Source of the DNA: Anaerolineae bacterium
GTDB lineage: Bacteria; Chloroflexota; Anaerolineae; Promineifilales; Promineifilaceae
DNA length: 64,000 nucleotides
NCBI GenBank assembly: GCA_007123775.1
Contig: SLGK01000114.1
Location: forward strand, 1 to 64,000
Reading direction: 5' to 3'
Numbering within the stretch: the first letter of the stretch is position 1; each line of letters opens with the position of its first letter. The notes beneath the pieces are model-generated. The model was not told the origin of the DNA and did not search any database. It saw nothing but the letters and a program-made list of their open reading frames with translations. Below are positions 42,340-60,536 of the stretch, in pieces. The position numbers and the translations under genes are program-made.

Positions 42340-44603
42340 ACGTACAGCTTCTCCAAAATTGAATCAAGCAGTCGTTCTGATTCCGGTGTTTCTGCCTTGA
42401 TCAGGCGCGTGTATTCACCACCGCGCCGCCATAGTTCCTCATGCGTACCTCGTTCGACGACCTGGCCATTGTTGAGGACTATGATTTCATCACAATCACG
42501 AATGGTGCTTAAGCGATGGGCTACAATCAGGCAGGTGCAGCCACGGCGGCGCAGATTACCGTCGATAATCTTTTCCGTAATGGGATCCAGGGCGCTGGTG
42601 GCCTCGTCGAGTATTAAAATAGAAGGATGGCTAACCAGGGCGCGGGCGATTTCCAGCCGCTGCCGCTGCCCACCGCTAAAGTTGCGTCCTTCTTCTTCGA
42701 TCAGATGGTCATAACCGGCGGCCTGGGCAGTTATTTCATTATGGATATGGGCATCTTTGGCCGCCCGGATGATGGCTTCTTCCGGTATTTGCTTGTCCCA
42801 CATGGTGAGGTTGTCGCGGACCGAACCTTCAAACAGAAATAGTTCCTGGTCAACAATCCGCAGCGAGTGGCTAATGATGGCCCGAGGGAACTCCTCTCGC
42901 TCTCGGCCGTCAAACAATATCTGACCCTCCCAGGGCAGGTATAGACCAGCCACCAGGCGGGCAATGGTAGATTTACCGCTGCCGCTGCCGCCAACCAGGG
43001 CTACGCGCATACCTGGTTCTAACCTCAGGTTAAAATCCTGAATCAGCGGAGGAGACAGGCGGCTGTAGCCAAAGGTCAGGTTGCGTATTTCGATGCTGCC
43101 TATCAGTTTTTGCAGGGGTTGGGAGGTGTCAATAGTGGCGTCGGCTAGATGGACTCGCGGGTCTGGCTCATAATTGGCTACGTCATTGAGGCGACGTACA
43201 ATGCCGTCTATTTCTTGGAGCTGTGTACCCAGGCCAACAACCTGATTGACCGGGGCTAAAAAGCTGGCCATCAAGGTTTGAAAGGCAACCAGAATACCGG
43301 CCGTCATTTGGCCTTCTAAAATGAGAAATGCGCCGACAACCAGGATGACAACGGTGGTTACTTGTGTGAGCAAGAAAGGAACGACGTTGACCATCTGTGT
43401 GGTAGCGCCCAATTCCTGGTTGGCGTTGAATACTTTGGCTTGATACCCGGCCCAGGTAGCAAAGGAATCGGCTTCACGACCGGTTGATTTGACGGTTTCG
43501 ATTTGGGTCAGGCTGTTAAATGTGGTTGAAGAGAGCTTGCCCTGTTCCTGAACCAAACGCTGATTGACATCTTTGCGTCGGCGGGCTACGGTGCGGAGGG
43601 CGACAAAGTTGAGGGCAGCCATTACAATGCCAATTACCGTGAGCGTCACGCTGTATTGGAACATCAGGATGGCGTAAAAACCTATCAAAATAACGTTGAG
43701 TAGGGTGGTAGCCAGGTCGCCCGAAAGCAGTTCGGCTACGCGGTCATTTTGTTCGATACGGGAGCTGATGTCGCCGGCGCCACGCTGGCTAAAAAATTCA
43801 ATCGGCAGGCGCAAAATATGCCAGGTAAGCTGGCTGGCTTTGGTTAGGGCCAGGCGTGTTTCTAACCGCAGTAGGTAGCGCTGCTGCATCCAGGTCAGGG
43901 CGGAACGCAAAACGGCCGTTAACACCATCCCTATCAGCAAGGGGATCATCCATTCCTGGCGGCCGGCACCCAGATAATAATCGACAAAGACTTGTGAGAA
44001 TGCGGGGATGAGCAGGCCGGGAATGACCAGCACCAGGCTGATCAATACGACAAAGGTTAAGGCTGTTTCTAAACCGGATAGCTGCGGCAACAAAGCGGAT
44101 AGCAGGCTGGGCTTCTTGCCCTGGGGCTGAAAATTTTCCCCTTTACTAAAGGTTAAGACCACGCCGGTAAAGGCTTCATCAAATTCTTGGGCGGAGACGG
44201 TGCGTGGACCGCTGGCGGGGTCATTCAGGTAGACGGTATCTTTGTAAAAGCCTTCCAGCACAACAAAATGATTGAAGTTCCAATGAATAATAGCCGGTAA
44301 GGGCATATCGCGTAATCCGGCTGGCTCTTGTCGGTAGCCTTTGGCTACCAGACCATATTTGCGGGCAGCTTTGAGCATATTACTGGCTTTGCTGCCGTCT
44401 CGATTGACACCGCACGCTGTTCGCAGCTCTTCCAGCGGGATGTAGCTGCCGTGATAGCCCAAGATGCTGCCTAAGGCGGCAGCGCCACATTCCACCATTT
44501 CCATTTGTATAACGGTGGGTGTCTTGGCGCGATGCTGGCCTAACATGCGCTTTTTTACTTCCGGCCACATCTCGGTTACTCTCTTGCTCCAGCTTTTACT
44601 CAT
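42336..44603 (-). CDS. NHLM-type peptidase-containing ABC transporter (LanT-like)
   Basis: Protein of 755 residues. The C39 peptidase domain (about residues 28-150) shows the catalytic Cys in IQMEMVECGAAALGSILGYH, the His in IIHWNFNHFVVLEG and the following Asp in NDPASG. Membrane domain about 160-460, then ATPase with Walker A ALVGGSGSGKSTIARLVAGL, signature FSGGQRQRLEIARAL and Walker B ILILDEATSALD. The peptidase would cut the leader after the Gly-Gly of the precursor and export the core. GAGGTGATCTT precedes the ATG. Confidence 0.92.
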   Translation of the reverse strand: MSKSWSKRVTEMWPEVKKRMLGQHRAKTPTVIQMEMVECGAAALGSILGYHGSYIPLEELRTACGVNRDGSKASNMLKAARKYGLVAKGYRQEPAGLRDMPLPAIIHWNFNHFVVLEGFYKDTVYLNDPASGPRTVSAQEFDEAFTGVVLTFSKGENFQPQGKKPSLLSALLPQLSGLETALTFVVLISLVLVIPGLLIPAFSQVFVDYYLGAGRQEWMIPLLIGMVLTAVLRSALTWMQQRYLLRLETRLALTKASQLTWHILRLPIEFFSQRGAGDISSRIEQNDRVAELLSGDLATTLLNVILIGFYAILMFQYSVTLTVIGIVMAALNFVALRTVARRRKDVNQRLVQEQGKLSSTTFNSLTQIETVKSTGREADSFATWAGYQAKVFNANQELGATTQMVNVVPFLLTQVTTVVILVVGAFLILEGQMTAGILVAFQTLMASFLAPVNQVVGLGTQLQEIDGIVRRLNDVANYEPDPRVHLADATIDTSQPLQKLIGSIEIRNLTFGYSRLSPPLIQDFNLRLEPGMRVALVGGSGSGKSTIARLVAGLYLPWEGQILFDGREREEFPRAIISHSLRIVDQELFLFEGSVRDNLTMWDKQIPEEAIIRAAKDAHIHNEITAQAAGYDHLIEEEGRNFSGGQRQRLEIARALVSHPSILILDEATSALDPITEKIIDGNLRRRGCTCLIVAHRLSTIRDCDEIIVLNNGQVVERGTHEELWRRGGEYTRLIKAETPESERLLDSILEKLYV

Positions 44604-44631
44604 AAGATCACCTCGGAATGGTTATGGAATA

Positions 44632-45420
44632 TTAACGAACGGGTAGTACCAGTTCGACCGGACGCTGTGTACCCATTTGAACGGTAGCAGAGGCAATCGT
44701 GCCAATGAGACCAGGGGGCAGTTGGTCGGCAGCGGTCTCTGTTTCCAGGAAGACACGCACCTCAATGGGTTGCTCTGCTTGAAGCAGGGTATGGCCCAAA
44801 GCGTGGCTCCCCAGCAAGTTGTTGATTTGCTGGGTGGAAACAGGGAATTCGCTAATCGTAGCAATGGTGCCTGACAGTGGGCCGATATTGGCCGCCGAGA
44901 CAGGCTCGACGACGACGGGCATGCCGGCTTCGAGCTGACGGGCCTGGTCTGGCGAGAGGTAGAGGACGGCTTCTAAGCGCACGTCTGGCCCCACAAATTG
45001 GAGATTAGCCAGTGAATCCCCTGCCTGAACCATTTGACCAACAGCAGCGCTTAGGCTCAGAATACGGCCGTCGTACAAACTGCGTACCGGGACAGGTGTA
45101 TCCTGACCGAGGGGCAATATTTCAGCAATGGTCTGATTTTTTGTGACGGTCTGGCCGGGTTCTACATGCCAGGCATATAGTTGACCGTTGTCTACGCCGA
45201 TGATGTTTTTGATGCCGCCGGTGGTGATGAGGGCGGCCGGGGCTGTCTGTTGTAATGGTATGTACCCAAAGATGCCCCAGTAAACGGCCGTAGCCACCAA
45301 TATTGTCAGGCCCAGAAAGGCCAGCCAGCTTCGAGGGCTGGTGACACGCATCAATAAATCAAGCTGCTCCGGGGATGAGAGCCGGTCAAGAGCTACTTTA
45401 CGAAAAATGGCAGAATTCAT
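44632..45420 (-). CDS. HlyD-like membrane fusion protein (NHLM type)
   Basis: Protein of 262 residues, short for an HlyD protein and typical of the NHLM bacteriocin set. One membrane segment (about residues 35-52), then a lipoyl-like beta domain (VDNGQLYAWHVEPGQTVTKN, GRILSLSAAVGQMVQAGD) and a beta-barrel C-terminal half, with no long coiled coil. It would link the C39 ABC exporter to the envelope. AAAGGAGG before the ATG; 28 bp upstream of the ABC1 gene. Confidence 0.88.
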   Translation of the reverse strand: MNSAIFRKVALDRLSSPEQLDLLMRVTSPRSWLAFLGLTILVATAVYWGIFGYIPLQQTAPAALITTGGIKNIIGVDNGQLYAWHVEPGQTVTKNQTIAEILPLGQDTPVPVRSLYDGRILSLSAAVGQMVQAGDSLANLQFVGPDVRLEAVLYLSPDQARQLEAGMPVVVEPVSAANIGPLSGTIATISEFPVSTQQINNLLGSHALGHTLLQAEQPIEVRVFLETETAADQLPPGLIGTIASATVQMGTQRPVELVLPVR

Positions 45421-45438
45421 ACTTTCCTCCTTTTACCA

Positions 45439-46620
45439 TCAAGCGAAAGATGGGACTGTGGGTTCGGTTTCATTGGTTGAGGCAGAAACGGCCGTTGGCT
45501 GGCTGTCCAAAATAACTTCTTGCCAAACACACACTTTCTCTGCTAACAGGGCAGGTCCTTTCGTGGCAGCCAGTTGGTCTAACCCAATACTGGCCAGCCC
45601 GCACAAAACAGCGGCTTGCAAAGACTCATCCCGCTCCTGGCCGGGCAACGTGTGGTCAAATCGCTCCAGATTATGAGCTGCCCTGACCACGACTTGCTTT
45701 ACTTCGGTAAAGACCGGTTCCTGCCGCCAGGCTGGTTCTAGGTAGTTTTCCAGGCGGGCACCGGGCCGGTAATGGGGATAATTTTCCAGACCCATAAATC
45801 GGAGAAACCAATCGGCCCGGTAACGGCCGTTGGCGGCCACAATACCGGCATAATCAGCCAGCAGTTCATCATGCACATGCTGGCGAATGACGCCAAAAAC
45901 CCGTTTGGTGAAGTAGTGGGCGCATTCGTGTTCCAGCCGTATTTGTAGAGAGAGCGAGAGCCATTCATCCTCTGCCAGCCCCAACGCACCGGCCGCCACA
46001 TTACTGTACGGTCCCCGGCTCAAAATAATAAAACGGTCCTGATAGAGATGCTTTTGGGGAATCAGCTCCCGAAATGCCTGGGGCCAGTCTGCCGGGGTGC
46101 GCTGGGGATCGGCTGCCAGCCATTCCCGGCGATAGGTACGGATGCGGTCCCAATTGTTGTAACCGGCGACCATGCAGGCCCCCATAGAGTCGGGAATAGG
46201 CACCGGTTCGTTGCGTTTGGTCAGGGCCTGTACCAGCGCACAAAAATCGGCCCGTGTAGCCGGGATGAGAACGGGGATGGTCCCGGCTAAGCTTTGGTGA
46301 ATTCGTAATTCAAGGTCTTCCGGCTGCTCCAGAATCAATCCGCTGGCTTCGGGCCAATTGGATACATCTACCCCTTGTTTAGTGGCGGCGCGGTAAACGG
46401 CCGTTTGGCTTATGCCTTGCCGAATAGGAAATTGTAACTGCACCAGTCGTTCACATAAAAAGTCCCAAGCATTTTCATTCACACCCTGGTTTAGATATTG
46501 TTGCCACATGGAGATATCTACCTCTTTTGGCAAAAAGGCTACCCTAGCATACCTGCTCCAAACTGAGATTAACTTTTCATCAAGTGGTATATATAGGGAA
46601 ACCCTATCTTTATGATCCAT
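45439..46620 (-). CDS. unknown protein with HECAH zinc-protease-like motif
   Basis: Protein of 393 residues, first gene of the export operon, with AGAGGAATC before the ATG. The segment LEHECAHYFTKRVFG near residue 230 contains H-E-x-x-H, and HDELLADYAGIVAANGRY lies about 15 residues later, where a third zinc ligand (Glu or Asp) could sit as in gluzincins. There are no transmembrane segments or export signal, so it is probably cytosolic. I do not recognise a characterised family (possibly DUF7005-like, from memory). A role in processing or tailoring the lanthipeptide, or as an immunity factor, is a guess from position. Confidence 0.65.
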   Translation of the reverse strand: MDHKDRVSLYIPLDEKLISVWSRYARVAFLPKEVDISMWQQYLNQGVNENAWDFLCERLVQLQFPIRQGISQTAVYRAATKQGVDVSNWPEASGLILEQPEDLELRIHQSLAGTIPVLIPATRADFCALVQALTKRNEPVPIPDSMGACMVAGYNNWDRIRTYRREWLAADPQRTPADWPQAFRELIPQKHLYQDRFIILSRGPYSNVAAGALGLAEDEWLSLSLQIRLEHECAHYFTKRVFGVIRQHVHDELLADYAGIVAANGRYRADWFLRFMGLENYPHYRPGARLENYLEPAWRQEPVFTEVKQVVVRAAHNLERFDHTLPGQERDESLQAAVLCGLASIGLDQLAATKGPALLAEKVCVWQEVILDSQPTAVSASTNETEPTVPSFA

Positions 46621-47027: not shown

Positions 47028-47369
47028 ATGTCTACACATGTTGGTGATCGCTTTGTGGCGCAAGAGCAAGTTTATATCAAAGCTGCAACTGATGAGAGTT
47101 TCCGCAACGCACTTTTTGAGGATGCCCATCAAGCCCTCGCTGCCGAAGGGATTAATATTCCTGCTGATACTGAAGTTGAGCTTGTTTCAGAGAATCCAAG
47201 CAATGGCATCAAGTTTATTGTCCCAGAACTACTCGTTTCAGAAATTGAACTAACAGACGAAGAGTTAGAAGTCGTTGCCGGTGGTGCTGCTTCACCAGAT
47301 TGTACCGTACTCAGTTGTTGGACCTGGTCCTGCATCATTAACTCAAGTCGAGCGCAACTTCAAGAGTAG
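47028..47369 (+). CDS. NHLP-family lanthipeptide precursor peptide
   Basis: Peptide of 113 residues. Residues 1-86 form a nitrile-hydratase-like leader (YIKAATDESFRNALFEDAHQ, then IKFIVPELLVSEIELTDEEL) ending VVAGG. The 27-residue core begins AASPDCTVLSCWTWSC and has three Cys (92, 97, 102), five Ser and two Thr, two Trp and a polar tail SSRAQLQE. Up to three (methyl)lanthionine rings are possible. Rare bias toward AT, strong ribosome site. Cleavage after Gly86 by the C39 exporter at 42336-44603 is expected. Followed by a terminator. Confidence 0.9.
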   Translation: MSTHVGDRFVAQEQVYIKAATDESFRNALFEDAHQALAAEGINIPADTEVELVSENPSNGIKFIVPELLVSEIELTDEELEVVAGGAASPDCTVLSCWTWSCIINSSRAQLQE

Positions 47370-47437: not shown

Positions 47438-47480
47438 GTTCTTTTGTTTAGCTGTTCAGCTTTGCTTTAAAGGAGAATAC

Positions 47481-48500: not shown

Positions 48501-48530
48501 AATACACTCACTTCCCATTAAGATCAAGAA

Positions 48531-48555
48531 AAGCACCTTCACAAGGTGCTTTTTT
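48531..48555. terminator. bidirectional terminator between the helical protein and lanM
   Basis: Stem AAGCACCTT / AAGGTGCTT with a CAC loop, followed by TTTTTT on the plus strand and by TTTTCTTG on the minus strand. It would end transcription from both convergent genes. Confidence 0.8.
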
Positions 48556-48580
48556 GAACCTCTTGCAAAAAAACACAGGA

Positions 48581-51500
48581 TTATTGGATAGCCAAAATAT
48601 CTGGTAGGGTTGGATCAGCAAGATAAAGAAGACTATAACCAATTCCCGCGAGACCTTGGAACATACCTAGACAGTAGGTCAGCGGGAATTTTGAGGATAC
48701 TGTATAATGGCCACGAGAATATTTGCGCTTAATAACTAATTGTAACCGGTTACGAAGTTGGGCTTGTAATTCAGAGTCTTTGATAGTGCGGGCTAATGAC
48801 TGCAGTATGAAGAGACGCCCGAGATTTCCGCAACATAAATGATCGACACCCCTAATTGGTTGTGACAGTGTAAAATCTACTGCGCGTTGAATGTCACTGC
48901 GAACCAAATCTGAATCCAGGACTGCTAATCCGGCTGCCCGGCCAATTGCAATGCCGGGGGCACCATTACACCAACTGCTGTTACTAACGTAGTTGATTTC
49001 ATTCGGGTTTCTGAGATCGGGCCAATTGCCGTATTCGGTAGAAAACGTTGCGTGTTCATAGGCAATGCCTTCTTTAGCCGCTTCCAGATACCGATTATCC
49101 CGCGTCACGGCATAAAGTCTCACCAAAGCAAGTATAATTCCCGCAGCGCCATGCGACAAACCGGTACCCAGTTGCCCGGCTACGGTTGGCCAGGCGCGAA
49201 GACCATCATAGGGTGATGGTTGCCTCGTTGCCAGTAAATGCTCGCCACAATGTCGAGCAAGTGACAGTACGCGGTTACTATTGTTCAGATTATGCAGAGA
49301 TAAAAGGGCTAGAGCTGTTCCAGCCACACCACGTAGTAAATCAATATGAGTATCTTGATATATATATTCAGGTGAAATCAGGTCTGCAAACTTCTCAGCG
49401 GAATCGAGCAAGTCTTTATGTGCAGATAAGCGGGCCAATGTAGCAAACGAATAGACCAGACTGCTGGCTCCACGAGAAGTGCCCAGTTCTTCTGCACGAT
49501 AAAACTTACTCAATTGACGTTTATTCTTTGCATCAAGTTCATTAAGCCGCTGGGTGATCCCCTTAATAACTTTGTTGGTGACAAGTTCTTCAATTTCTGA
49601 ATTGCCTGTTACTTTCGCATACGCCATCAGAAATACGGCAACCCCAGATAAACCTTCATAGAAACCATGTTTCAGGGGACCTAGTTGATAACGTCCTATT
49701 TCGTCAAAATACTGCATGCCGTACCAATTCAAGTAAGAATTGCTATCAGTTTTAGCGAGCTGAAGAATGAAATCGGCAATCTGTTTGGCTTCACCTAACA
49801 ATAGTTGCTTCGAAATATCTACAGATGATTTTGTATCAAAATCTAAGGAAGAATCTGTAGCATACTCATCAGACAGACCGTGGAAGTCCATCCTGTTTTG
49901 AGATGACAGTGCCGTTTTGACAATATCAAGCTGCTGTGCCAAATCATCTGCTCCGAGTCTGTGCAAACGCTGCAAAACGTTGTCTAGACTAGGAGAGGCA
50001 AAATAATTATCTATCGTATCTCCCGTACTGGTGTATAAGACAGTATCAATAGGACGGGAGGCAAAAAATGGTATGTCGCCTTGCAACATGTCATGCACTT
50101 CTGCACGCTGTATCAACCACTCGGCCGGCTGTTCTTTTAGTGACATAAAGGCTATTGCTGTACGATCTAGCTCCAGGCTGGTTGCAATGCCATGTTGCAA
50201 GAACTGAGGATGAACTGTTCGTTGCAACAGTTTGCCATAAACGTCTGTATTGCGAAAGAGAAATCTCGTTGGATATGCTGCCAATCTTGCTAGAAGTTCC
50301 GTCTGAATTAATTGCTGTCTATTGTCAACCAGAAAGTGATACATCTGCTCAAACCCCCAACAGATTTCGGCGACATATTTTGATGACGGCTGTATTTCAT
50401 CGTGTAACTGAACAACATTGGTTCCCAGTGTTGTCTCTTTCTCCAAAATTGTTCGCTTCATTGTATCCTGGTTAATATTTTTCCATCCCGGCATTTTTGT
50501 TTTGCCCGTTTTCATTAAACCAAGCCCGCTTAGATCATTTTTTGTGTCTAAGTTTTGGCTAGGAAGTAATCCTGTTGTGATTACCGTATCAAAGGAAAGG
50601 TTATGAAATTCAGACAAACCATTTTTACCCATTTCTTTTGGAAGGGGGGCCATCAATGTCTCTAAATCAAAAAGAACAGGGTATTCGCCATGGACAATCA
50701 CATTCTCATGATGACCATCGCTACCCCCTAGAACGTACCAAAGGCATAACAAAGTGCCAGCTCGTTGATAATACTGTTTTACATCTCCGATTGTTCCACA
50801 GGGCTTTTGCTCAATAAATTCCACCCAGCCATATTCCGTTCGGGCAATCACTTGCCACTTTTTGAAGTCAAGGGGAAATCCTTGTTCTTCAATCCAATCA
50901 ACAATTGCAAAATAGGCTGCATCTATTGCAATAGGTTTTGGTTTGTAAACAACTCGTGTTTGATCATCAATTGTTAAAATATGAACCGTACGACCGCGAT
51001 TGTGTGGATCAGATAACTCCAGCCTGAAGTCAGTTACACAGTGACAACCACCAAACTTCTTGGTTATATCGTCCCAATCTATTTCAAGTCTTTGTAAAAA
51101 TTCCGCATAGCTTTCTTGCCATATCTCAATGCTTTGCCCCCAAAATTTGGCCAGCACCGGGTAGTTTAGAAAGATTTGATGCAAACCATCATCTAGTAAA
51201 TAGTCAATAAATGATTGGTAGATAGCATCTCCGTTTTGCTCTGGCAGCTTTGCATCTTTAGCTTGTATGCGAAATTGATCAAATATGGCGAAAAACACAA
51301 ATTCGCTTAAACTTCCCAGTTTCTTCGATAGGCTGTAAGCTAATTTTGCCTGTGCCTTGTCGCTCAACCGTGACCAGATGAAATCGACTTTATCAGACAA
51401 TTCGCGCATTGCTCGATTGACAATGGGATAGAATATATGTTGAAAAGGAACTGGGTCATTTCCTAATTCGATCATCAGATAATCATCGATTAACGGTTTA

Positions 51501-51814
51501 CACTCTAGGCTAAGCTCTGTTAAGTAGTTGTCTAAAATTGACATCCACCTGCATTCGTTTACCGGTCCATTCCATACCATATCGCCAAGAAGTTGCCTGG
51601 CCTCATCTTCTGTAAAATTGTCCCAAGCTAATCGCTTGTGTAGTGCGTCCTGGTTATGGGTACCCAAGGCCTTGCGCCATTGAGATAAGATCTGTTCAAT
51701 CTTTTCAGATGATTGTGACGATATGGGCTGGTACCTACTATCTGTTGCCCGTTCAATGAATGTTGCTGACTGACCAATAATTAGAGCTTGTTCTTGTTGG
51801 TTAAAAAATGACAT
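48581..51814 (-). CDS. lanM: class II lanthionine synthetase (LanM, ProcM-like)
   Basis: Protein of 1077 residues from ATG 51814 (a TTG 14 codons upstream also fits). The dehydratase half carries the LanM kinase-like core GGSDGHHENVI near residue 364 and VLFDLETLM beyond it. The C-terminal cyclase half has LanC-type zinc ligands: WCNGAPG (Cys about 949) and HLCCGNLG (Cys about 994 and 995). The third ligand is Cys rather than His, as in the substrate-tolerant ProcM group. It dehydrates Ser/Thr and adds Cys thiols to form lanthionines in the precursor at 47028-47369. The gene has no ACGGCCGT octamer and is AT-rich relative to flanking DNA. Confidence 0.93.
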   Translation of the reverse strand: MSFFNQQEQALIIGQSATFIERATDSRYQPISSQSSEKIEQILSQWRKALGTHNQDALHKRLAWDNFTEDEARQLLGDMVWNGPVNECRWMSILDNYLTELSLECKPLIDDYLMIELGNDPVPFQHIFYPIVNRAMRELSDKVDFIWSRLSDKAQAKLAYSLSKKLGSLSEFVFFAIFDQFRIQAKDAKLPEQNGDAIYQSFIDYLLDDGLHQIFLNYPVLAKFWGQSIEIWQESYAEFLQRLEIDWDDITKKFGGCHCVTDFRLELSDPHNRGRTVHILTIDDQTRVVYKPKPIAIDAAYFAIVDWIEEQGFPLDFKKWQVIARTEYGWVEFIEQKPCGTIGDVKQYYQRAGTLLCLWYVLGGSDGHHENVIVHGEYPVLFDLETLMAPLPKEMGKNGLSEFHNLSFDTVITTGLLPSQNLDTKNDLSGLGLMKTGKTKMPGWKNINQDTMKRTILEKETTLGTNVVQLHDEIQPSSKYVAEICWGFEQMYHFLVDNRQQLIQTELLARLAAYPTRFLFRNTDVYGKLLQRTVHPQFLQHGIATSLELDRTAIAFMSLKEQPAEWLIQRAEVHDMLQGDIPFFASRPIDTVLYTSTGDTIDNYFASPSLDNVLQRLHRLGADDLAQQLDIVKTALSSQNRMDFHGLSDEYATDSSLDFDTKSSVDISKQLLLGEAKQIADFILQLAKTDSNSYLNWYGMQYFDEIGRYQLGPLKHGFYEGLSGVAVFLMAYAKVTGNSEIEELVTNKVIKGITQRLNELDAKNKRQLSKFYRAEELGTSRGASSLVYSFATLARLSAHKDLLDSAEKFADLISPEYIYQDTHIDLLRGVAGTALALLSLHNLNNSNRVLSLARHCGEHLLATRQPSPYDGLRAWPTVAGQLGTGLSHGAAGIILALVRLYAVTRDNRYLEAAKEGIAYEHATFSTEYGNWPDLRNPNEINYVSNSSWCNGAPGIAIGRAAGLAVLDSDLVRSDIQRAVDFTLSQPIRGVDHLCCGNLGRLFILQSLARTIKDSELQAQLRNRLQLVIKRKYSRGHYTVSSKFPLTYCLGMFQGLAGIGYSLLYLADPTLPDILAIQ

Positions 51815-51877
51815 GGTTAACTGGCTGTTCCTTTTCGTGATGAAGCAACTCCTCAATCAAGCGGGGTGAAAGCCATT

Positions 51878-51955: not shown

Positions 51956-52723
51956 TCAGGCCGACATCAATTCTGGGGTTTCCAGCAGTCGTTGAGTTAG
52001 GACATATACACCCTCTGTAAATGGATGACCAGGATGGTTAATGGAGAATAGTGATGCACTCCCGTTTTCAGCAATGTCGATTGATAGGGGTAGCAGAGCG
52101 GCTGCGTCACACTGATAGGCCTCTTCTACCTGTTCTCTTACCGCTTCAAAATCGTATTCTGGCGGGACCTTGTTGACTACCAGAGTAATTTCAGGCACGC
52201 GCAGGCGGCGGGCCACGTCCACGGTGACGCTGGTACCCTGGAAGTCCTGCTGGTCGGGGCGCAGGATGATGACTAGGCTGTCGGAAATGGCAATGGAGAG
52301 CAGCGTTTCTTCGTTGAGGCCGGGATGGGTATCGATAAGCAGGTAATCGAGTGATAGGGCAGCAATCAAGTCACGGAAAGCGCCGTGCATATCGCTGGCA
52401 TCATATTTTTCGCGCAGAATGCGAGCGATGTCGTTAGGGTCTAAACTGGAAGGGACCAGGTAAACTTCGCCACCTTGCTCGGCCTCGTATACCTTATGAG
52501 CAGCATCTTCAATGGTGCAGTTGCCCCAGAGAAAGTCGTTGAGGGTATGGGTGATCGTTGTATCGGTCAACCCAAAAATCACATGTATGCCAGGCGATTG
52601 GATGTCGGTGTCAAAAACACCCACTCGATAGCCTTCCTGCGCCAGGAGCGCGGCCAGGTTAGCGGTCACGTTGGATTTGCCAGTGCCGCCACGAAAAGAG
52701 TGTGTTGAAATTATTTTGGTCAT
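51956..52723 (-). CDS. MinD/ParA-type P-loop ATPase
   Basis: Protein of 255 residues. The deviant Walker A is FRGGTGKSN, with Arg where the signature Lys usually stands, followed by VFDTDIQSPGIHVIFGL and LDYLLIDTHPGLNE (Walker B-type). C-terminal CpaE/BcsQ-like features (VVNKVPPEYD). GGAGG precedes the ATG at 52723. It follows the wHTH/cNMP protein by 14 bp and precedes lanM, so it is probably part of the same transcription unit. Its role in the locus is unknown; spatial or signalling control of secretion is possible. Confidence 0.8.
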   Translation of the reverse strand: MTKIISTHSFRGGTGKSNVTANLAALLAQEGYRVGVFDTDIQSPGIHVIFGLTDTTITHTLNDFLWGNCTIEDAAHKVYEAEQGGEVYLVPSSLDPNDIARILREKYDASDMHGAFRDLIAALSLDYLLIDTHPGLNEETLLSIAISDSLVIILRPDQQDFQGTSVTVDVARRLRVPEITLVVNKVPPEYDFEAVREQVEEAYQCDAAALLPLSIDIAENGSASLFSINHPGHPFTEGVYVLTQRLLETPELMSA

Positions 52724-52737
52724 GGGATGCCTCCATC

Positions 52738-54423
52738 TCAAACTAGAATAAGTTGATTGTCTACGCTTACGGCAACGGCTTCTTGCTTCATATCCCGCTT
52801 CAAGTCCGTCGCAAAATGAATAACGTCATCGAGGTGCGTATCGAGCGCCTTTTTAGAAACGAAGGTACGCACGATTGTTACTTGCTCTGTTACCAGGCCA
52901 CTGTCTTCGCTGCGCCAGGCACCCTCTGCATCACTGCTGGTGGCCCCGCCAAACAGGTTGCCTAGAAATGAAAGGGTGGCTTTTACCTGCTGGCTGTTAT
53001 CAACTTCCTGGTCTACATCAACTGTTGAGGGTACGAATAGGGCCACCGCATGGTTGAGCGAGAGCCGCCGGTACACTTCGTGTAATGCTTCTGATAGCGG
53101 GTTGTCCAAGTCCGCTTTTACCAGCGGTTTGTTTTGGGCGGCGCTGGTGGTCAGCGCCTCTTTATCATCTGGTAGGGCAAGATGAAACCGGGGATCGATG
53201 TTGGCAGCTTGTTGGCTGGTAGCGTTGAGTGCTAATACACGCTTTTGGCCAGGGAAAGAGTAAGGCTGTAGTTTTGACCACCTCTGTAAACCTTCGTCAG
53301 CCCCATTTTCATCTTTCGTGAGTGTAAGCAAGGTCTGGGCCTGTCCGCGCAGGCGCAGCGTTAGTTCACTTTGGGTTTCGCTGCCGCTATCGCAGATAAT
53401 GTATTCATATTGCGCCTGCAGGTCACTCAAAAGCATGTCGAGTTGGACCTGGGGCGCATAACTGCTTGGGTCTATTTTGGTGAGCCGATCCGGGCCGTCG
53501 CTGTAAACGGTGATAGTCGCCAGCCCTACTTTTTTGTGGGACACGGCCGTTACGTCACCCAAATCTTGTAAAGCAGAGGCTTGTTCTGTAGCCCAGAACA
53601 GTGTTTTTCCACCCTGTTCTGAATCACTTTGCTGCTGAGCCAGCCAGGCCAAATTAAGGGCAAATGTTGTCACGCCAGCTTGAGAGTGTACACCTTCTAC
53701 CACCCACAGCTTGCTCTGCTGTTGTAAGTGAGCCTGCTGACAAATGGTCAACTGCTGGCTCAAGTAATGGGACAACGCGTGGCCAAGCTGGCTATACTCC
53801 TGGGCAAAGGCAAAGAAGTCTGAGGCGGGCCAGGTGAGTAGGGTGGTGGGGGTAGCGGCCGTATACGTCGTCATAATTGGTGTTTGACTCAAGCTCTCAG
53901 CCAAACCGACCCAGCTCCCACGATGCAAATAGCCACTCCTCTGTTTCGTGTACCTGCTTTTTAGCCGCGCCTGTGCCAATAACCCCTGCTTCACCAGCCA
54001 AACATGCTCCGTCTTTTGCCCTTGCCAAACCATTACTTCATCGGGCAACAACGTGTGTTCTTGACCCAACTCCAACAGTTTCTCCCTTTCGGCTAGTGGC
54101 AATACTGAGGTAACAGGCACTTCAGCCAAAAACGCATTGGGTGTTTGCTCCAATAAATTGACAATTTTAGCCGGCATGTTGCGAACGGTACGCTGCTTGA
54201 ACTGGAATCGCGTCGAAAAAACACGTTGACCATTTAGCAACTGTTCAACAACACGCCCCTGACCTAACAAATTGTTAACTGTTTTCTCTACAGCAGCCGT
54301 TGCCAGATTCAATTTGGCAGACAGGTCGAAAACAGTCAATTTGGGATGCCGGGTCAGGCAGCGCAAAATCGTCTGTTCATCAGACGACATAGATAGCAGG
54401 TCAATGGGAGAAAGAGCGGACAT
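52738..54423 (-). CDS. wHTH - cNMP-binding-like - degenerate P-loop ATPase protein
   Basis: Protein of 561 residues with three parts: an N-terminal winged helix (about residues 1-75), a cyclic-nucleotide-binding-like beta-roll (about 95-225, including HTLLPDEVMVWQGQKTEHVW), and a MinD-like ATPase region (from about 240). The P-loop reads GVHSQAGVTTFALNLAWLAQ: the Lys that contacts phosphate is absent, so ATP hydrolysis is doubtful. The first 75 residues resemble the 89-residue protein encoded just upstream. A regulator that senses a ligand and pairs with the adjacent active ATPase is a reasonable guess. Confidence 0.7.
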   Translation of the reverse strand: MSALSPIDLLSMSSDEQTILRCLTRHPKLTVFDLSAKLNLATAAVEKTVNNLLGQGRVVEQLLNGQRVFSTRFQFKQRTVRNMPAKIVNLLEQTPNAFLAEVPVTSVLPLAEREKLLELGQEHTLLPDEVMVWQGQKTEHVWLVKQGLLAQARLKSRYTKQRSGYLHRGSWVGLAESLSQTPIMTTYTAATPTTLLTWPASDFFAFAQEYSQLGHALSHYLSQQLTICQQAHLQQQSKLWVVEGVHSQAGVTTFALNLAWLAQQQSDSEQGGKTLFWATEQASALQDLGDVTAVSHKKVGLATITVYSDGPDRLTKIDPSSYAPQVQLDMLLSDLQAQYEYIICDSGSETQSELTLRLRGQAQTLLTLTKDENGADEGLQRWSKLQPYSFPGQKRVLALNATSQQAANIDPRFHLALPDDKEALTTSAAQNKPLVKADLDNPLSEALHEVYRRLSLNHAVALFVPSTVDVDQEVDNSQQVKATLSFLGNLFGGATSSDAEGAWRSEDSGLVTEQVTIVRTFVSKKALDTHLDDVIHFATDLKRDMKQEAVAVSVDNQLILV

Positions 54424-54424
54424 C

Positions 54425-54694
54425 TTAATTGAAAAGTGTATCTAGCAAGCCAACACTGCTGCGTTTAGGTTTAGGCTTGCCCTGCATTTGAACTTGATAT
54501 TTTCTATCGCTATCTATATTTAACCGTGATTCTTTAACCATCTTGTAGACTACACCTTCCAGCTCATCTACCGGAATTCTGGTCAAGCCGGCAATTTCTT
54601 GCAAAGTCAGCTGGGGTTTTCGTATCAAACACCGAATAACATCTTGCTCCGTATTTGTAACAGTTAATAAATCCAGTGGAGACAACATAGCCAT
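54425..54694 (-). CDS. small winged-helix protein
   Basis: Protein of 89 residues: LSPLDLLTVTNTEQDVIRCL then KPQLTLQEIAGLTRIPVDEL. The pattern parallels the first 75 residues of the 561-residue neighbour (LSPIDLLSMSSDEQTILRCL), so the two are paralogues or the small one is a split-off copy. The ATG at 54694 has GGAG at about 10 nt. The gene is immediately upstream of the large one and starts the operon. Confidence 0.7.
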   Translation of the reverse strand: MAMLSPLDLLTVTNTEQDVIRCLIRKPQLTLQEIAGLTRIPVDELEGVVYKMVKESRLNIDSDRKYQVQMQGKPKPKRSSVGLLDTLFN

Positions 54695-54859
54695 AACGTG
54701 CTTCTCCTTCACTTATAATTGAGCTCCGTTAATTAACATTCTCGTGCAAGTACTACAATACTAATTATCGGCAAACGTAACAAAGATTACCTGATATAAT
54801 AATCATCTTTCGGTTGTGATTCTTTATACAAGAGTGGTGTGACTTTGACCCTATGCTCG
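54695..54859. promoter_or_regulatory. promoter region of the wHTH/ATPase operon
   Basis: 165 bp between the second regulator and the small wHTH gene, rich in AT. On the minus strand it contains AAGTCAC followed after nine bases by GTATAAA, a one-sided match to the inverted repeat seen upstream of comX. No certain -10/-35 boxes. Confidence 0.4.
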
Positions 54860-55567
54860 TTAACGATAGACAATCCGGTTGATTCTGGCCCAAGCCGCTG
54901 CCTCTGCTCTAGATCGGATCCAGGGGATTTTGCGATACGTGTTGTGAATATGGGATTGAACGGTATTGGGAGCTATTTGTAGCTGCCGGGCAATTTCCTC
55001 GTCTGTCAAACCTTTAGCTAACAACTTAATCACATTTAATTCCGTCGGGCTCAAATCTTGATATAGTTCAGGGATATAGCGAAGCAGTGTATTTTGAACT
55101 TGCTGATTCAATACCGTTTGCCCAGCAACCACGGCCCGAATACCATCTAGGACAGTAGCTAGCAGGTCACTTTTTAGAAGATACCCCCTAACGCCAGCAG
55201 CCAACATACTCCAAATATACTGCTTGTCCTGATAACTGCTAAAAACGAGAATCTGGGGATGCCCGTTGATTGATTCCTGCTGTCTTAACAGATTTAGCTG
55301 GCGGGCCACCTGAATACCCCCCAACCGCGACAGGTTAATGTCGAGTACAATTACCTGTGGAGATAAGGTTTGAGCCAACCGCATGGCTTCTTGGCCGTCA
55401 CCTGTTTCTCCGAGGACAACAATATCTTGCTGCCTTTCGATTTCCTGCCGCAAACCTTCGCGGATTATCTGGTGCGCGTCAGCAAGCAAGACACCAATTG
55501 TGTTGACGGTATGAAAACGCGGATCATGGCCTAAACCTGAACGTGCCGGCAGCAAGGATTCAATCAT
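54860..55567 (-). CDS. NarL/LuxR-family response regulator (second ComA-like protein)
   Basis: 235 residues from ATG 55567; a TTG at 55633 lies within the inverted repeat and is an unlikely start. The receiver holds IGVLLADAHQIIREGL, phospho-acceptor Asp in VIVLDINLSR, T/S at VFSSYQ and Lys in GYLLKSD; the HTH has LSPTELNVIKLLAKGLTDEE and TVQSHIHNTYRK. It follows RR1 by 163 bp. Probably a DNA-binding output of the ComP-like kinase. Confidence 0.85.
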   Translation of the reverse strand: MIESLLPARSGLGHDPRFHTVNTIGVLLADAHQIIREGLRQEIERQQDIVVLGETGDGQEAMRLAQTLSPQVIVLDINLSRLGGIQVARQLNLLRQQESINGHPQILVFSSYQDKQYIWSMLAAGVRGYLLKSDLLATVLDGIRAVVAGQTVLNQQVQNTLLRYIPELYQDLSPTELNVIKLLAKGLTDEEIARQLQIAPNTVQSHIHNTYRKIPWIRSRAEAAAWARINRIVYR

Positions 55568-55631
55568 ACCGGCTATTGTCCCCACTTTTTTCAGGAAGTG
55601 TTGAAGAGACCAACCTATTTTGATTGTGACC

Positions 55632-55654
55632 AAGTCACTAGTCGATTGTGACTT
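55632..55654. promoter_or_regulatory. AAGTCAY-N9-RTGACTT inverted repeat upstream of the second regulator
   Basis: AAGTCAC at 55632-55638 and GTGACTT at 55648-55654 separated by nine bases. It is 65-87 bp upstream of the likely start at 55567. An identical arrangement with AAGTCAT/ATGACTT and the same 9-bp spacer lies upstream of comX. Candidate binding site of a NarL-type regulator. Confidence 0.65.
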
Positions 55655-55730: not shown

Positions 55731-56429
55731 TTATTCAATTTCAACAATCCGATTCTCCCAGGCCCAGGCTACTGCCTCAGAACGTGTGCGAACATTTGGC
55801 AGCTTTTTATATATGTTCATGACATGGTTTTTGACCGTACCGACGGCGATTATCAAAGCCTCAGCGATTTCGTCGTTGGTGTAACCTTTGGCCATCAAAC
55901 GCAGCACTTCTAACTCTCGCTCGCTCAGACTATGTTTCGGTTCGTCGCGGCGGGTCAAGAGCAACTTTTGCACCGGCAGGCTCAAGGCTGGTTCTCCTTT
56001 CGCCACCTGCCGGATTCCGACGACAATGCGGTCTGCTGATTCATCTTTCAATAAGTAACCTTTCGCGCCGGCCGCAAACAGACTATAGACATATTCAGGC
56101 TCACAATATGCGCTGAGAATCAAGATATGCGGTGGCCAGGGAGCTGAGGTATCAGTCCGATCATTTGCATCAACCGTCATGTGGGTAATCTTTTCGGCCA
56201 CATCGGTCCCTTGTAGCCCTGGCATATTGATGTCCAGAAGGAGAACATCCGGACGTAGCGACTGGACTATTTGCAATGCTTGTTCTCCGTCTGTAGCTTC
56301 CCCAATCACCTCTATATCGGCGTGCCGTTCCAGCGCACTGCGAATGCCGGAACGCACAACATGATGGTCATCGGCCAAAATTATACGGATTCTTCTGGCG
56401 TCTGTTTTGGATGCTTCATCTACGGTCAT
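55731..56429 (-). CDS. comA: NarL/LuxR-family response regulator (ComA-like)
   Basis: Protein of 232 residues. Receiver: RIILADDHHVVRSGIRSALE with acidic pair DD, phospho-acceptor in VLLLDINMPG, Lys in GYLLKDE. C-terminal HTH: LSERELEVLRLMAKGYTNDE and VKNHVMNIYKKL. Located 24 bp after the histidine-kinase gene, with GGAGGACAATT before the ATG, so co-expressed. By position and domains it corresponds to ComA. The symbol denotes this analogy only. Confidence 0.87.
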   Translation of the reverse strand: MTVDEASKTDARRIRIILADDHHVVRSGIRSALERHADIEVIGEATDGEQALQIVQSLRPDVLLLDINMPGLQGTDVAEKITHMTVDANDRTDTSAPWPPHILILSAYCEPEYVYSLFAAGAKGYLLKDESADRIVVGIRQVAKGEPALSLPVQKLLLTRRDEPKHSLSERELEVLRLMAKGYTNDEIAEALIIAVGTVKNHVMNIYKKLPNVRTRSEAVAWAWENRIVEIE

Positions 56430-56453: not shown

Positions 56454-58847
56454 TTAAACAGGAATAGAAACTTCCAGTCGAGTGCCAAGAGCCGGAGCAG
56501 AGACTATATCAAATGTACCCTGTAACAGTTCAACCCTTTCCCGCATCCCTACCAATCCAAAATGATCGTTGTTCATCAGCCTACCTAAACGCTGTGGAAC
56601 CTCAAAGCCTGTCCCGTTGTCGCCAATAGTCAGCCTGACCCGTTCTGGTTGAATAGTCAGGTCAATATCAATTTGGGTAGCAGATGCGTGTTTGCGAATG
56701 TTGGATAATGCTTCGCCCGTGCAGCGGAAAAGACAAAGGGCAGTATCCTCATCAATGGGCAGCTTGCGATCTCCCTCTATGTTCAGATTCACGCCAATGC
56801 TGTGGTCCATTTCAAAGCGATTTACCAAAGAGCGAATAGCAGGTATCAACCCCAGGTCTAGAGCCGCCGGCCGCAAATCCTGGCATAAGTGGCGAGTTGT
56901 TTCAATGAGCGCACCGATTTCGCTTTCTAAGTCTAGTCTTTGCTGCCCATTGTCAGTAGAGGCTGTCTGATAATGCACAGCAGTCGCCTCAATCTGGGCT
57001 GTATGGTACTTCAAACCAACCAGTTGTTGAATGATCTGGTCGTGCAGCTCACGGGCAATACGTTTTCTTTCTTCCTCCCGTGTTCTGAAAATTTCCTTTT
57101 GGTATTGCTCGTTTTCATTAACTTTTTCTTCCAATTCGCCAATAAGCTGGGCATTCTGGAAGATAACGCTGGCTTGACGAGACACAACGTCCAGAATTTC
57201 CAAGTCTTCGGCGTTAAATAAATCACCACCATATTTTGGACCTAGGAGCAGGAGGCCAAGCGATTGTTTTAGCCCTTGTATTGGTATCCACAAGCGAACT
57301 GAATCGCTTTCAATCAGTTGTGCTTCTTCGTCAGTTAAATCCCAATCAGCTGCTTTGTGCCGAATTTGCTGGTTATTTACTGGCTGGGTTTGTTGTTTCA
57401 AGAAACGGATGATACTTGGCAATCCGTCTGAGTACAGCGTGTCGAGCAACAAAGGATTTTCGGTGTTTTCAGACGCATAGATACTGGTGGGTGTATCGAT
57501 GTCTTCTTGCCACAGTAAATAGACCCAGTTGACGCGCATCGTTTTTTGTACGCTCATGGTCAACGTTTGGGCAATGGTTTCAATACCTGTGGTTGATTCT
57601 AGTGTATGTGTTACTTGGCTGACAACTGTGGGGTAGTCATACCATCCACCATACATCAGGTAATCAACCAGGTTTTGTAAGCGACGGTAAAGTGGATTGT
57701 AAACGACAACAAGTGTCATGACCATTAGCAAGTTTACAAGCGGGTTAGTCAGTACATTGTCATCTGACAAGGATTGAAGCAGATAGGAAATGGCAAAATA
57801 TAAGACGCAAAGAGTACCAATTACGTAAACGGCCGTTGCACTGCGGCTGATATAACGCTCCAATCGGATAAACTGATAGCGTCTGATGGCATAGCCGTAA
57901 CCTAAAGGCAACACAATCAAAAACAGCAAGGAAAATGGTATGGGCAGCAACGCCTCGCCAAATAGAATAGCGGGAAAAATTGACAATGTTAGCAAAGGCA
58001 CACCGGCCACGAAACCACACAGTGCAACCATACCAACCTGCCGTTTGGTAACGGGCGAGTAACTGTTACGATACGCTCTGACCAATAACCAAAGTACCAG
58101 AATAAGGCCAACTAACAACCACAGGTTTAGGGTGAGGGCATATGTCGTTGCTAAGATGCCAGAGGGTGTTGACTCAAGGGCCAAAACCAATCTCAAAGTA
58201 ACACCCAACAACGTGATGCCATAGACACCAATAATCGGCTTGCTTGTTTGCCAGAGAGTCTGGGCTACCGGAAAGATCAGGTGAAAATGAATCGCCAATC
58301 CTATGGCCCACCAGGTAGCAATGTGAGAAAAGTGGCCGGCCCAGGCCTGACTCGTTACAGCCCCTAAGGCAAGGCTTGCTCCCAATGCCTGGCACCACAA
58401 GAAGAAGAGAATATTTTGCTTGGTAAACGTCGGCGACAGCAAAATGACGGCCAGGCCAACCAGCCAAAACGCTAGGGCAACAAAATTGAGCGAGAGACGA
58501 ACGATTAAGATAAAAGGTGGCGCTGGTTCTGTATAGAGCGTTTCAATGATAAGTCGCTCACCAGCACGCTCTACCTCAAGTTGTAAGATATCTCCATGCT
58601 GCCACTGGTAATAGGGAAAACTGCTGTCAGCTAAGAGAACACCGTCAATACGAAGGACCTGATCGTCAACCAGCAGGTCTGAGTTCTGATGGGCATAATA
58701 GACCACGCCATTGTCTGCCCATAAGGCACCGAGGTCTGGTTGGATAATTACTTGCCAGGCCGACCAAATTATGACAAACAGCGACACGGCCGTTACAAAC
58801 GCAAGGCAAATTTGAGCTGCAATTGTCTTTTGGTAGGTTCTGAACAT
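56454..58847 (-). CDS. comP: ComP-like sensor histidine kinase (PDZ-like, multi-TM, GAF, HisKA_3)
   Basis: Protein of 797 residues. One membrane segment (about 10-30), an extracytoplasmic PDZ-like segment (LLVDDQVLRIDGVLL near 60 and QHGDILQLEV near 83), then about eight membrane segments to residue ~360, a GAF-like region (~410-560) and the HisKA_3 kinase: H box RIARELHDQIIQQL with phospho-His near 602, N box EALSNIRKHA near 713, DNGTGF near 743 and GLVGMRER near 764. This PDZ-like plus multi-TM layout is that of Bacillus ComP, the ComX receptor. It lies between comQ-like and comA-like genes. Confidence 0.85.
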   Translation of the reverse strand: MFRTYQKTIAAQICLAFVTAVSLFVIIWSAWQVIIQPDLGALWADNGVVYYAHQNSDLLVDDQVLRIDGVLLADSSFPYYQWQHGDILQLEVERAGERLIIETLYTEPAPPFILIVRLSLNFVALAFWLVGLAVILLSPTFTKQNILFFLWCQALGASLALGAVTSQAWAGHFSHIATWWAIGLAIHFHLIFPVAQTLWQTSKPIIGVYGITLLGVTLRLVLALESTPSGILATTYALTLNLWLLVGLILVLWLLVRAYRNSYSPVTKRQVGMVALCGFVAGVPLLTLSIFPAILFGEALLPIPFSLLFLIVLPLGYGYAIRRYQFIRLERYISRSATAVYVIGTLCVLYFAISYLLQSLSDDNVLTNPLVNLLMVMTLVVVYNPLYRRLQNLVDYLMYGGWYDYPTVVSQVTHTLESTTGIETIAQTLTMSVQKTMRVNWVYLLWQEDIDTPTSIYASENTENPLLLDTLYSDGLPSIIRFLKQQTQPVNNQQIRHKAADWDLTDEEAQLIESDSVRLWIPIQGLKQSLGLLLLGPKYGGDLFNAEDLEILDVVSRQASVIFQNAQLIGELEEKVNENEQYQKEIFRTREEERKRIARELHDQIIQQLVGLKYHTAQIEATAVHYQTASTDNGQQRLDLESEIGALIETTRHLCQDLRPAALDLGLIPAIRSLVNRFEMDHSIGVNLNIEGDRKLPIDEDTALCLFRCTGEALSNIRKHASATQIDIDLTIQPERVRLTIGDNGTGFEVPQRLGRLMNNDHFGLVGMRERVELLQGTFDIVSAPALGTRLEVSIPV

Positions 58848-58871: not shown

Positions 58872-59804
58872 CTAACCTGCCCTTGGTACAGATTGTGGTG
58901 CGATATGGTCCAATATACGCTGCAACTGAGCTTTGATGTCTGGTGCGAGCTGCATTGTTTGCACAAGCTGGTATGCTTCCTGCCGGATAAGTGACATTTG
59001 GGTCACTAAGTAAACTACAGCACCACTACCAATAATCAGCCGATGGGCCAACTCTGCCTTTTCTGATTCAGAAACGGCCGTATCAAGCAACGCCAGTAAA
59101 GCTTCTTTTTGGGCCTGTGGCAGCACGGTTACTGCATAACCAACAGGTAAACTATGCTTTGCAGCAGCAAATAAATCCTCTTTTGAAGCCAAATCAACTA
59201 GATCATCATGAATTTGGTCCAACAAACCCAGTTTGTGACCAAATTGACGATATAAGTTTAACTCCTGATGGTCAGCACAGGCAACATAGCCACCAGCCCA
59301 ACAAACCAAGCCTAGACTGGTACCAGATTTTGTCTCAGCGATTTGCCAACTTTTCTCCAGCGAGGGTGACGATAGGGACAGGTCTTCATGTTGACCAGCA
59401 CAAGTCTGTAACAAGCCAACATGAAAGCCTTCACGAATTGCTTGAGCCGATTCCACAGCTACCCCGCTTGCTTCTAGCTGACTGAGCAAGTAGCCGGCTG
59501 TGAAGATAAGCCCCGTGGACACGTTTAAGTCCACGGGCATGGTTCCCGTTTCGGCGTTGCCATCCTCAATATCGTCGAGTATGCGGGCCGCGTGCCTTAG
59601 CAAATGCCACGCTGACACAATTGGCATAACCTGTTGGCGACTACCGCCATTTGCCTCACATAGCAGTATTGGTAGTGCCGACAGTTTATGTCCAGCTTCG
59701 TTATTTGGTTGGGTCAGTTTGCAACTTCGTCTTAGGGCATCTGCGTAAGCTTGATTGATATGAGGATTAGACCATAGTGGGTCGACCAGTGAAGGTTCAA
59801 TCAT
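58872..59804 (-). CDS. comQ: ComQ-like isoprenyl transferase (polyprenyl-synthetase fold)
   Basis: Protein of 310 residues in the trans-prenyl-diphosphate-synthase fold. The first Asp-rich motif is DDIED at residues 77-81 and the second is DQIHDD at 196-201, both able to bind Mg-diphosphate. It is adjacent to the ComX-like peptide gene (18 bp downstream). ComQ attaches farnesyl or geranyl to a conserved Trp of ComX; here W70 of the neighbour. A role only in lipid biosynthesis is the alternative, but its position between a small peptide and a kinase argues for ComQ. Confidence 0.78.
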   Translation of the reverse strand: MIEPSLVDPLWSNPHINQAYADALRRSCKLTQPNNEAGHKLSALPILLCEANGGSRQQVMPIVSAWHLLRHAARILDDIEDGNAETGTMPVDLNVSTGLIFTAGYLLSQLEASGVAVESAQAIREGFHVGLLQTCAGQHEDLSLSSPSLEKSWQIAETKSGTSLGLVCWAGGYVACADHQELNLYRQFGHKLGLLDQIHDDLVDLASKEDLFAAAKHSLPVGYAVTVLPQAQKEALLALLDTAVSESEKAELAHRLIIGSGAVVYLVTQMSLIRQEAYQLVQTMQLAPDIKAQLQRILDHIAPQSVPRAG

Positions 59805-59822: not shown

Positions 59823-60041
59823 TTACGGAACCCACTGCTGATCCGGTGACGGGTGGGGGAAGTAATCCTTTGCAAGCAGATCAAAGATGGTTTCTCCGTC
59901 TTGGATGAGGGCCAATATTGCTTGAACTTCTGCTGGGGCAATATTGAATCGGTCAATAATTACTTGTCCATTTTGGACGATCTCAGCCAGCAAAACAGGG
60001 TTGGAGACAATCTGATACACAACTTCATGCAAAGTATTCAT
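59823..60041 (-). CDS. comX: ComX-like pheromone precursor
   Basis: Peptide of 72 residues. Helical N-terminal half (LHEVVYQIVSNPVLLAEIVQ), then RFNIAPAEVQAI, then KDYFPHPSPDQQWVP. The spacing of NP-x-x-L, the F-x-x-x-x-x-E-x-x-x-I pattern and a C-terminal Trp three residues from the end follow B. subtilis ComX (tail RQWGD). Strong ribosome site GGAGGAAAAAA. It heads the operon comX-comQ-comP-comA1. ComX similarity is by eye; a general small-RiPP precursor of the same fold is the alternative. Confidence 0.72.
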   Translation of the reverse strand: MNTLHEVVYQIVSNPVLLAEIVQNGQVIIDRFNIAPAEVQAILALIQDGETIFDLLAKDYFPHPSPDQQWVP

Positions 60042-60536
60042 TTTTTCCTCCGATTACGAATGTATGGACCTAAACTACATTCTACCCCGTCTGTGATTTC
60101 TTTCCTAGAAATAAAGTCATTTTCTGACTATGACTTTCGCCTTATTGGAGAAAGTTGCTCCAGCACCTGCTATCTTTAACGAAGATTTCCAGCAACCCGT
60201 ATCGTCTGGCACGTGCGGTAGCTGCATTTCGTACCGTTTGAAGCTGACGTTACCGGCCGTTGGCACCACAATTACCCCCGTACCGGTCAGCTTGCCAAGA
60301 TGCAGCTTGTCCCCAATGTGCAAAACCGGGACTGGGTCACGCCGCAGTGAAACCGCTGCCCGCCGCGAGTTGACCGGGATCAGAAACATCGCCTGGCATT
60401 TAGGCGCAACGGCCGCGGCCAGGTCGCTGGTGACGCTTTACACAAAGAGCCTGGCCAGGGCAAATACGACGACTTTTTCGCTAGTTGCAGCAGAGCGCGG
60501 CCTGTTGCTGATTGTCTGAGCTGACCCAAGCAAACG
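60042..60536. other. intergenic region upstream of comX
   Basis: 495 bp. Apart from the inverted repeat, a minus-strand stretch of about 90 codons (60117-60389) is open and reads LRRDPVPVLHIGDKLHLGKL, but I recognise no family and do not call a gene. The segment before it (VTSDLAAA) also occurs near 38010. It may be debris from a larger gene. No promoter boxes confidently seen. Confidence 0.35.
60113..60137. promoter_or_regulatory. AAGTCAY-N9-RTGACTT inverted repeat upstream of comX
   Basis: AAAGTCAT and ATGACTTT arms separated by nine bases. It is about 72-96 bp upstream of the comX ATG. The same arms and spacing are found upstream of the second regulator. Candidate autoregulatory site. Confidence 0.65.

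Follow-up and report, generated by a model that had tools for sequence, protein, structure and literature searches.

A set of four adjacent genes on the minus strand of a 64,000-nucleotide stretch of Anaerolineae DNA (hereafter the window) probably constitutes, to judge from sequence and by analogy, an operon for a tryptophan-prenylated peptide pheromone working in the manner of the ComQXPA and PalXQP systems. The genes, here called X, Q, P and A, would encode the precursor peptide, its modifying enzyme, a sensor kinase and a response regulator. Open to direct observation are the genes and their order, the motifs, the fold similarity, the conservation of the tryptophan, the co-divergence of enzyme and sensor, and the synteny.

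A 2014 census reports comQXPA from Firmicutes alone (PMC4008528), and a KEGG-based study notes only a kinase-regulator pair for the Chloroflexi (PMC8895600). The trans-IDS-like tryptophan prenyltransferases listed in a 2026 review are ComQ, ChrPC and PalQ, and a search of its main text yielded no mention of Chloroflexi (PMC13290415). A literature search that took in few subscription papers, with preprints outside its scope, found no published report of a ComX/ComQ system in Chloroflexi, Chloroflexota or Dehalogenimonas, and the PDB code 9v4g gave chance matches only. The nearest characterised relative is PalX-PalQ-PalP (PMC10853753).

The precursor gene X

X (59823..60041, minus strand) encodes a 72-residue candidate pheromone precursor, which starts with MNTLHEVV, ends with DQQWVP and has, as judged by its family, a putative NHLP-clan-type leader. 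On the same strand, a GGAGG Shine-Dalgarno sequence (60047..60051) lies 5 nt ahead of the ATG, and the codon of Trp70, the proposed prenylation site as read from the sequence, occupies 59832..59834. Translation of exactly this interval on the minus strand confirmed the first-pass annotation, which had described a peptide ending QQWVP with a tryptophan third from the C-terminus; the plus-strand translation contains stops. The tryptophan falls within about ten residues of the C-terminus, as in ComX. The ORF is more than a chance one, because relatives of its leader adjoin the gene of the same enzyme in many genomes. Scans for promoters and terminators gave site counts not above those in shuffled sequence, and the window X alone had no match at E <= 1 to the ComX family of Pfam (PF05952) or to NF038399, TIGR03793 and TIGR04509, none to PF14407, and nothing significant in PHROG.

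The enzyme Q

Q (58872..59804, minus strand; 310 residues) contains a polyprenyl synthetase domain of the isoprenoid-synthase fold (PF00348, E 1.5e-12). Alignment places its first Asp-rich motif (FARM), DDIED, at 59562..59576 and the second, DDLVD, preceded by a conserved Gln, at 59193..59207, both on the minus strand. The AlphaFold model (pLDDT 89.2) has Ord1 as its first fold match in the PDB (TM 0.78, about 20% identity), and Ord1 also comes first in sequence searches, both by phmmer (3.4e-6) and with a six-row profile (2.9e-17). The genome's other polyprenyl synthase (C220), a housekeeping enzyme, served as control: its best matches are GGPP synthases and their polyprenyl synthetase relatives (3nf2 at 3.7e-54), and Ord1 ranks far lower. 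The likeness of Q to Ord1 (PDB 9v4g-9v4j) extends to the Gln before the second Asp motif; at this low identity, the two differ in that Ord1 farnesylates free tryptophan, according to the review (PMC13290415), whereas a tryptophan within a peptide is proposed for Q.

Furthermore, none of the 23 Q rows of the joint alignment has the IPP-site motif GKRxR or RRxR (one row has a gap in place of the former), and the two Firmicutes ComQ lack them as well. Ten of eleven control rows keep both RRxR and GKxxR (one as GKLLR), the eleventh, L201, itself appearing Q-like; the genome's own polyprenyl synthase, unlike Q, keeps GKRxR and RRxR. The window Q shares with ComQ a trans-IDS fold in which the first Asp motif is kept and the IPP site lost. 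It departs from it at the second Asp site, where Bacillus ComQ has a pseudo-motif (PMC5331326) with only the second Asp kept, and where the window Q retains DDxxD as DDLVD. From sequence and model, we infer that Q is a putative peptide-tryptophan prenyltransferase of the ComQ/PalQ/Ord1 kind.

A specific orthology with Bacillus ComQ was also considered and is unsupported by pairwise score, as Anoxybacillus ComQ matches the housekeeping synthase of the window's genome (50 bits) better than the window Q (24.8 bits). In a tree of Q, the housekeeping copies separate from the rest (100/99), and the Firmicutes ComQ sit on long branches, their place uncertain.

The kinase P and the regulators

P (56454..58847, minus strand) is a 797-residue ComP-type sensor histidine kinase, whose succession of a TM segment, a PDZ-like domain, a TM bundle and GAF-like, HisKA_3 and HATPase_c domains was assigned from domains, TM count and a structural model. 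Ten hydrophobic segments are present, namely an N-terminal one and, beyond the PDZ-like domain, about nine more. P has the ComP architecture of a PDZ and multi-TM sensor joined to HisKA_3 and HATPase_c, the PDZ part being taken from the model (pLDDT 77, pTM 0.52), where residues 41-104 form a beta domain that follows the first helix and precedes the membrane bundle. The Pfam PDZ model matches relatives of P (5e-9 in L083) and, more weakly, Anoxybacillus ComP (2.4e-4), but not the window P.

A profile of the sensor half of P finds Anoxybacillus ComP at E 4.7e-28 in a set of 576 ORFs; since that set held few unrelated kinases, a search of the window's whole genome is the better control, and there the window P scores 540.7 bits and the next match 31.7. 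In the same genome, a search with the single sequence of the Anoxybacillus ComP sensor gave no match.

A (55731..56429, minus strand) combines a receiver and a LuxR-type HTH domain (PF00072, PF00196), as ComA does, and A2 (54860..55633, minus strand), a second LuxR-type response regulator recognized by its domains, adjoins A in close relatives. Q, X, P and A stand adjacent on one strand, as in ComQXPA, in a different order. The likeness to the Bacillus system covers all four genes, namely a polyprenyl-synthase-like enzyme, a short Trp-ended precursor with a very variable core in both systems, a PDZ and multi-TM HisKA_3 kinase and a LuxR-type regulator. The differences are that the order, Q-X-P-A in ComQXPA, is X-Q-P-A or A-X-Q-P in the Chloroflexota sets, that the X leader there mostly matches NHLP-clan models and not PF05952, that Q mostly keeps the second Asp motif, and that some X have tandem cores.

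Related loci in the Anaerolineae

Related X were collected as small ORFs beside Q in related genomes, after which a profile of the leader region found more. The 44 distinct Anaerolineae Q-type loci (L045, a duplicate of L090, was left out) include 31 with P and 25 with an X match beside Q, and X is present in 23 of the 31 that bear P. The ORF at 2860-5232 of L089 is not a P and was excluded from the locus counts, the Q-P distance test and the sensor profile. The P-bearing loci lacking an X match are L100, L086, L088, L189, L085, L090, L195 and L199 (8/31); L100 and L088 have, by eye, a Trp-containing ORF at the place of X, and L090 begins at a contig end.

Tryptophan is the sole residue besides the start Met that is invariant in all 19 rows of the X alignment (A4); it occurs after residue 50 in 25 of 25 peptides tested and makes up 6.5% of tail against 0.5% of leader residues, counts that overstate the case because part of the profile seeds had been selected with a Trp filter. 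The last Trp of single-core relatives lies 2-19 residues from the end. Between the precursors of G136, G098 and G063, from two families, 47-51 of 62 leader residues are common and 5-7 of the last 10, with WG always kept. Four precursors carry tandem Trp cores, from three to six or more (L093 6846-7184, L089 1517-1945, L094 5488-6042 and L095 5653-6369): G170 has GPWGWQF three times, G288 has four cores, G188 five of GPWDWQF and G241, interrupted by an N gap, at least six of PFPGWQG. TRF confirmed DNA repeats of 48-54 bp in three of the four, and the portions of the literature covered describe no multi-core form for ComX.

Over the 19 loci with both Q and P aligned, Mantel correlation of distances gave r 0.885 for Q against the P sensor, 0.658 for Q against the P kinase and 0.748 for the sensor against its own kinase. 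Such co-divergence of Q and sensor is to be expected where enzyme and receptor have a peptide in common; shared ancestry also contributes.

Two further arrangements were observed. G072 has five Q-type genes (L086-L088, L189, L190), and a P, whether whole, split or cut, adjoins four of these. The plasmid pHAU01 of Herpetosiphon aurantiacus (L210 3870-8922, Haur_5072 to Haur_5069) bears a regulator, a Q-like gene, an 802-residue kinase and an Rce1/CPBP-type protease; no Trp-ended X was found on it, though A, Q and P are present, the 64-residue ORF before Q being devoid of Trp.

Loci found through the sensor

A search of the phylum with A5 was dominated by housekeeping synthases, so the P sensor profile was used for this purpose. 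It matched in 21 of 400 genomes of the phylum, from which 15 loci were fetched, seven with Q and eight without. Five of the seven have an X match (20-36 bits), obtained with no Trp filter, which lies on the 5' side of Q at a gap of at most 31 nt or with an overlap of about 9 nt. The Trp is next to last in all five (GWF, FWL, GWL, GWF and GWF), four of these loci belonging to one genus. The remaining Q-bearing loci are L247, which begins at a contig end, and L249, where the X profile had no match.

The five X-Q loci (L243-L246 and L248) belong to another class, with genomes of 1.6-2.1 Mb and a long ComP-like kinase. The P of the two loci scanned for it joins a sensor of the same kind to a hybrid kinase part (PAS, HisKA, HATPase, receiver), and the four Q examined have QxxND as their second Asp motif, like Anoxybacillus ComQ. 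Separately, the ComP-type sensor kinases of L250-L257 have no Q in their vicinity; this type of sensor is therefore also used without a prenyl-peptide signal.

Leader type and relation to ComX

Among 19 members of the X family, 12 match NF038399 of the NHLP clan (best 3.8e-12), 9 TIGR04509 and 4 TIGR03793, all at E <= 1, and 10 match PF14407. PF05952 is matched by three of the 19 (best E 0.05); its model is weak, ComX of B. subtilis 168 scoring 19.5 bits against a cut-off of 25 bits. The X profile, run over 271 ORFs of five plasmid and control loci, had Anoxybacillus comX as its best match, at only 11.6 bits (E 0.004), and hhalign of the X family against one ComX gave nothing significant. On these last two results, ComX and X may share an ancestor.

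The first-pass annotation had argued from sequence for a ComX-like peptide. The spacings it pointed out, NP-x-x-L and F-x5-E-x3-I, are present in the window X and in none of three ComX compared (B. subtilis 168; B. velezensis, L207; Anoxybacillus, L208), the looser P-x-x-L and F-x5-E each occurring in two of the same three. Its view that 72 residues exceed the length of Bacillus ComX does not hold, as Dogsa et al. give 52-73 residues for B. subtilis precursors (PMC4008528). The comparison with PF05952 that it proposed gave no match for the window X at E <= 1, and hhalign against ComX was not significant; with these results and three of 19 relatives at E of 0.05 or above, membership of X in PF05952 by sequence was rejected. 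The functional idea, of a short Trp-modified signal that is made with a ComQ-like enzyme and new for Chloroflexota, fared better: the enzyme next door, the ComP-type kinase, the regulator and the comparisons between genomes support it well. X would be ComX-like in its working, because the context supports this, and not of the ComX family by sequence, since PF05952 and hhalign do not; membership in that family goes beyond the present sequence support.

Stand-alone NHLP-clan peptides with Trp at or near the end (KSKMW, KRRLWRG and KGLWSIGTG) occur in L176, L179 and L188 without Q.

The downstream lanthipeptide cluster

Downstream of A2, all on the minus strand, lie genes for a 95-residue winged-helix-like (HTH) protein (54425..54712), syntenic in G001, G005, G028 and G021, an HTH protein with a cyclic-nucleotide-binding-type domain (52738..54423) and a MinD/ParA-type ATPase (51956..52741), the latter two assigned by domains and likewise syntenic. 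The first two (52738-54712) have a similar N-terminal HTH, fused in one to the cNMP-binding-type domain, and together with the adjacent ATPase are kept with the system in close relatives. A class II lanthipeptide cluster follows (39352-51856), comprising the LanM synthetase (48581..51856, minus strand; TIGR03897, 788.6 bits, and synteny), whose operon is the proposed target of the signal, an NHLP-leader precursor on the opposite strand (47028..47369, plus strand; TIGR03793 2.1e-16, above cut-off), whose tail holds CTVLSCWTWSC, and a DUF7005 protein, an HlyD-type adaptor and two NHLM ABC exporters (39352..46620, minus strand), assigned by domains and synteny.

The order A2-HTH-cNMP-ParA-LanM-DUF7005-HlyD-ABC is identical in the window, G001 and G005, where identity to the window is 27-29% for LanM, 78-80% for ParA and 72-75% for A. 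G028 shows the HTH, cNMP and ParA genes and, on the other side, a LanM; in G007, cNMP and ParA lie at the margin of its stretch; none of this gene order was found in the stretches of G051 and G025 searched. Since the window, G001 and G005 share the cluster order along with the system, and the searched stretches of G051 and G025 do not have it, the signal probably controls a bacteriocin (lanthipeptide) operon in these close relatives and different genes in other lineages.

Proposed mechanism and alternatives

In the pheromone operon proposed, X would be a RiPP-type precursor whose helical leader recruits Q, and Q would attach a prenyl group to the Trp near its C-terminus, by analogy a C10-C15 group at indole C3 with closure to a pyrroloindoline. 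The core would then be cut out and exported, and in its mature form would bind the PDZ-plus-membrane sensor of P, which would phosphorylate A. Finally A, with A2, may activate the LanM/NHLM lanthipeptide operon that lies downstream, and probably its own as well. Prenylation, cleavage, export, sensing and target genes are in this scheme what we infer.

In judging this reading probable, we counted in its favour the gene order and common strand, the occurrence of X beside Q in 25 of 44 loci, the tail Trp, the sensor-found loci, the Ord1 match, the loss of the IPP motifs, the sensor-profile match to Anoxybacillus ComP, the co-divergence, the sensor that accompanies X and Q in another class even where the kinase part is a hybrid, and the synteny. 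On the other side were counted the lack of a family match for the window X, the Trp-filtered seeds, the 8 of 31 loci without X, the 8 of 15 sensor loci without Q, the results of the Anoxybacillus ComQ and ComP queries, the DDxxD kept in Q and the Trp-ended NHLP-clan peptides without Q.

The alternative that survives best, itself rather unlikely, is that of X as a PalX-like product, a lipidated bacteriocin or a lipopeptide, which P and A would sense for immunity or autoregulation and not for cell density. The PalX-PalQ-PalP set of Paenibacillus alvei resembles the Chloroflexota sets in its NHLP-type leader, a Trp at or near the C-terminus, a trans-IDS-like Trp prenyltransferase and a histidine kinase (PMC10853753); moreover, most X leaders match the NHLP clan and multi-core precursors raise output. 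The resemblance has its limits: PalQ, by its published description, needs a C-terminal Trp (PMC10853753), against 2-19 residues from the end in single-core X of Chloroflexota, and the Chloroflexota set includes a response regulator. A signal is the better fit to cores that are small and variable, to a sensor of complete ComP type and to a place before a separate lanthipeptide operon, and the interval from X to A showed no gene dedicated to immunity.

Very improbable is a role of Q in the LanM cluster, in which it would prenylate the Trp of a lanthipeptide core, X being incidental or a helper. Such a role would suit the close linkage and the Trp residues of the NHLP precursor at 47028-47369, but the stretches searched in G051 and G025 have X-Q-P and no LanM, X accompanies Q at many loci, and Q co-diverges with the P sensor. 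Least probable of all, a reading of Q as an ordinary prenyl diphosphate synthase and of X as a small protein that stays unmodified, with a coincidental likeness to ComQXPA, would agree with the PF00348 match and the intact DDxxD at both sites but not with the lost IPP-site motifs, Ord1 as closest relative, the separate housekeeping copy in the genome and the conserved Trp.

Significance

A wider proposal, made tentatively and on slightly less than even terms, is that Trp-prenylated peptide pheromones are a phylum-wide form of signalling in the Chloroflexota, built on NHLP-clan RiPP leaders, multi-core in some genera and with hybrid kinases in another class, and that Bacillus ComX arose within this RiPP lineage as a branch with a shortened precursor. 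If so, ComQXPA and PalXQP would be joined in one family. The system proposed for the window would in itself be the first known case of signalling by Trp-prenylated peptides beyond the Firmicutes, in a filamentous, largely uncultured phylum whose cell-cell signalling is hardly known. The system offers dozens of natural enzyme-substrate pairs for peptide lipidation, including multi-core precursors, as well as a route to learning the origin of ComX, and its conserved lanthipeptide neighbour hints at what the signal may control, which is testable by heterologous expression.
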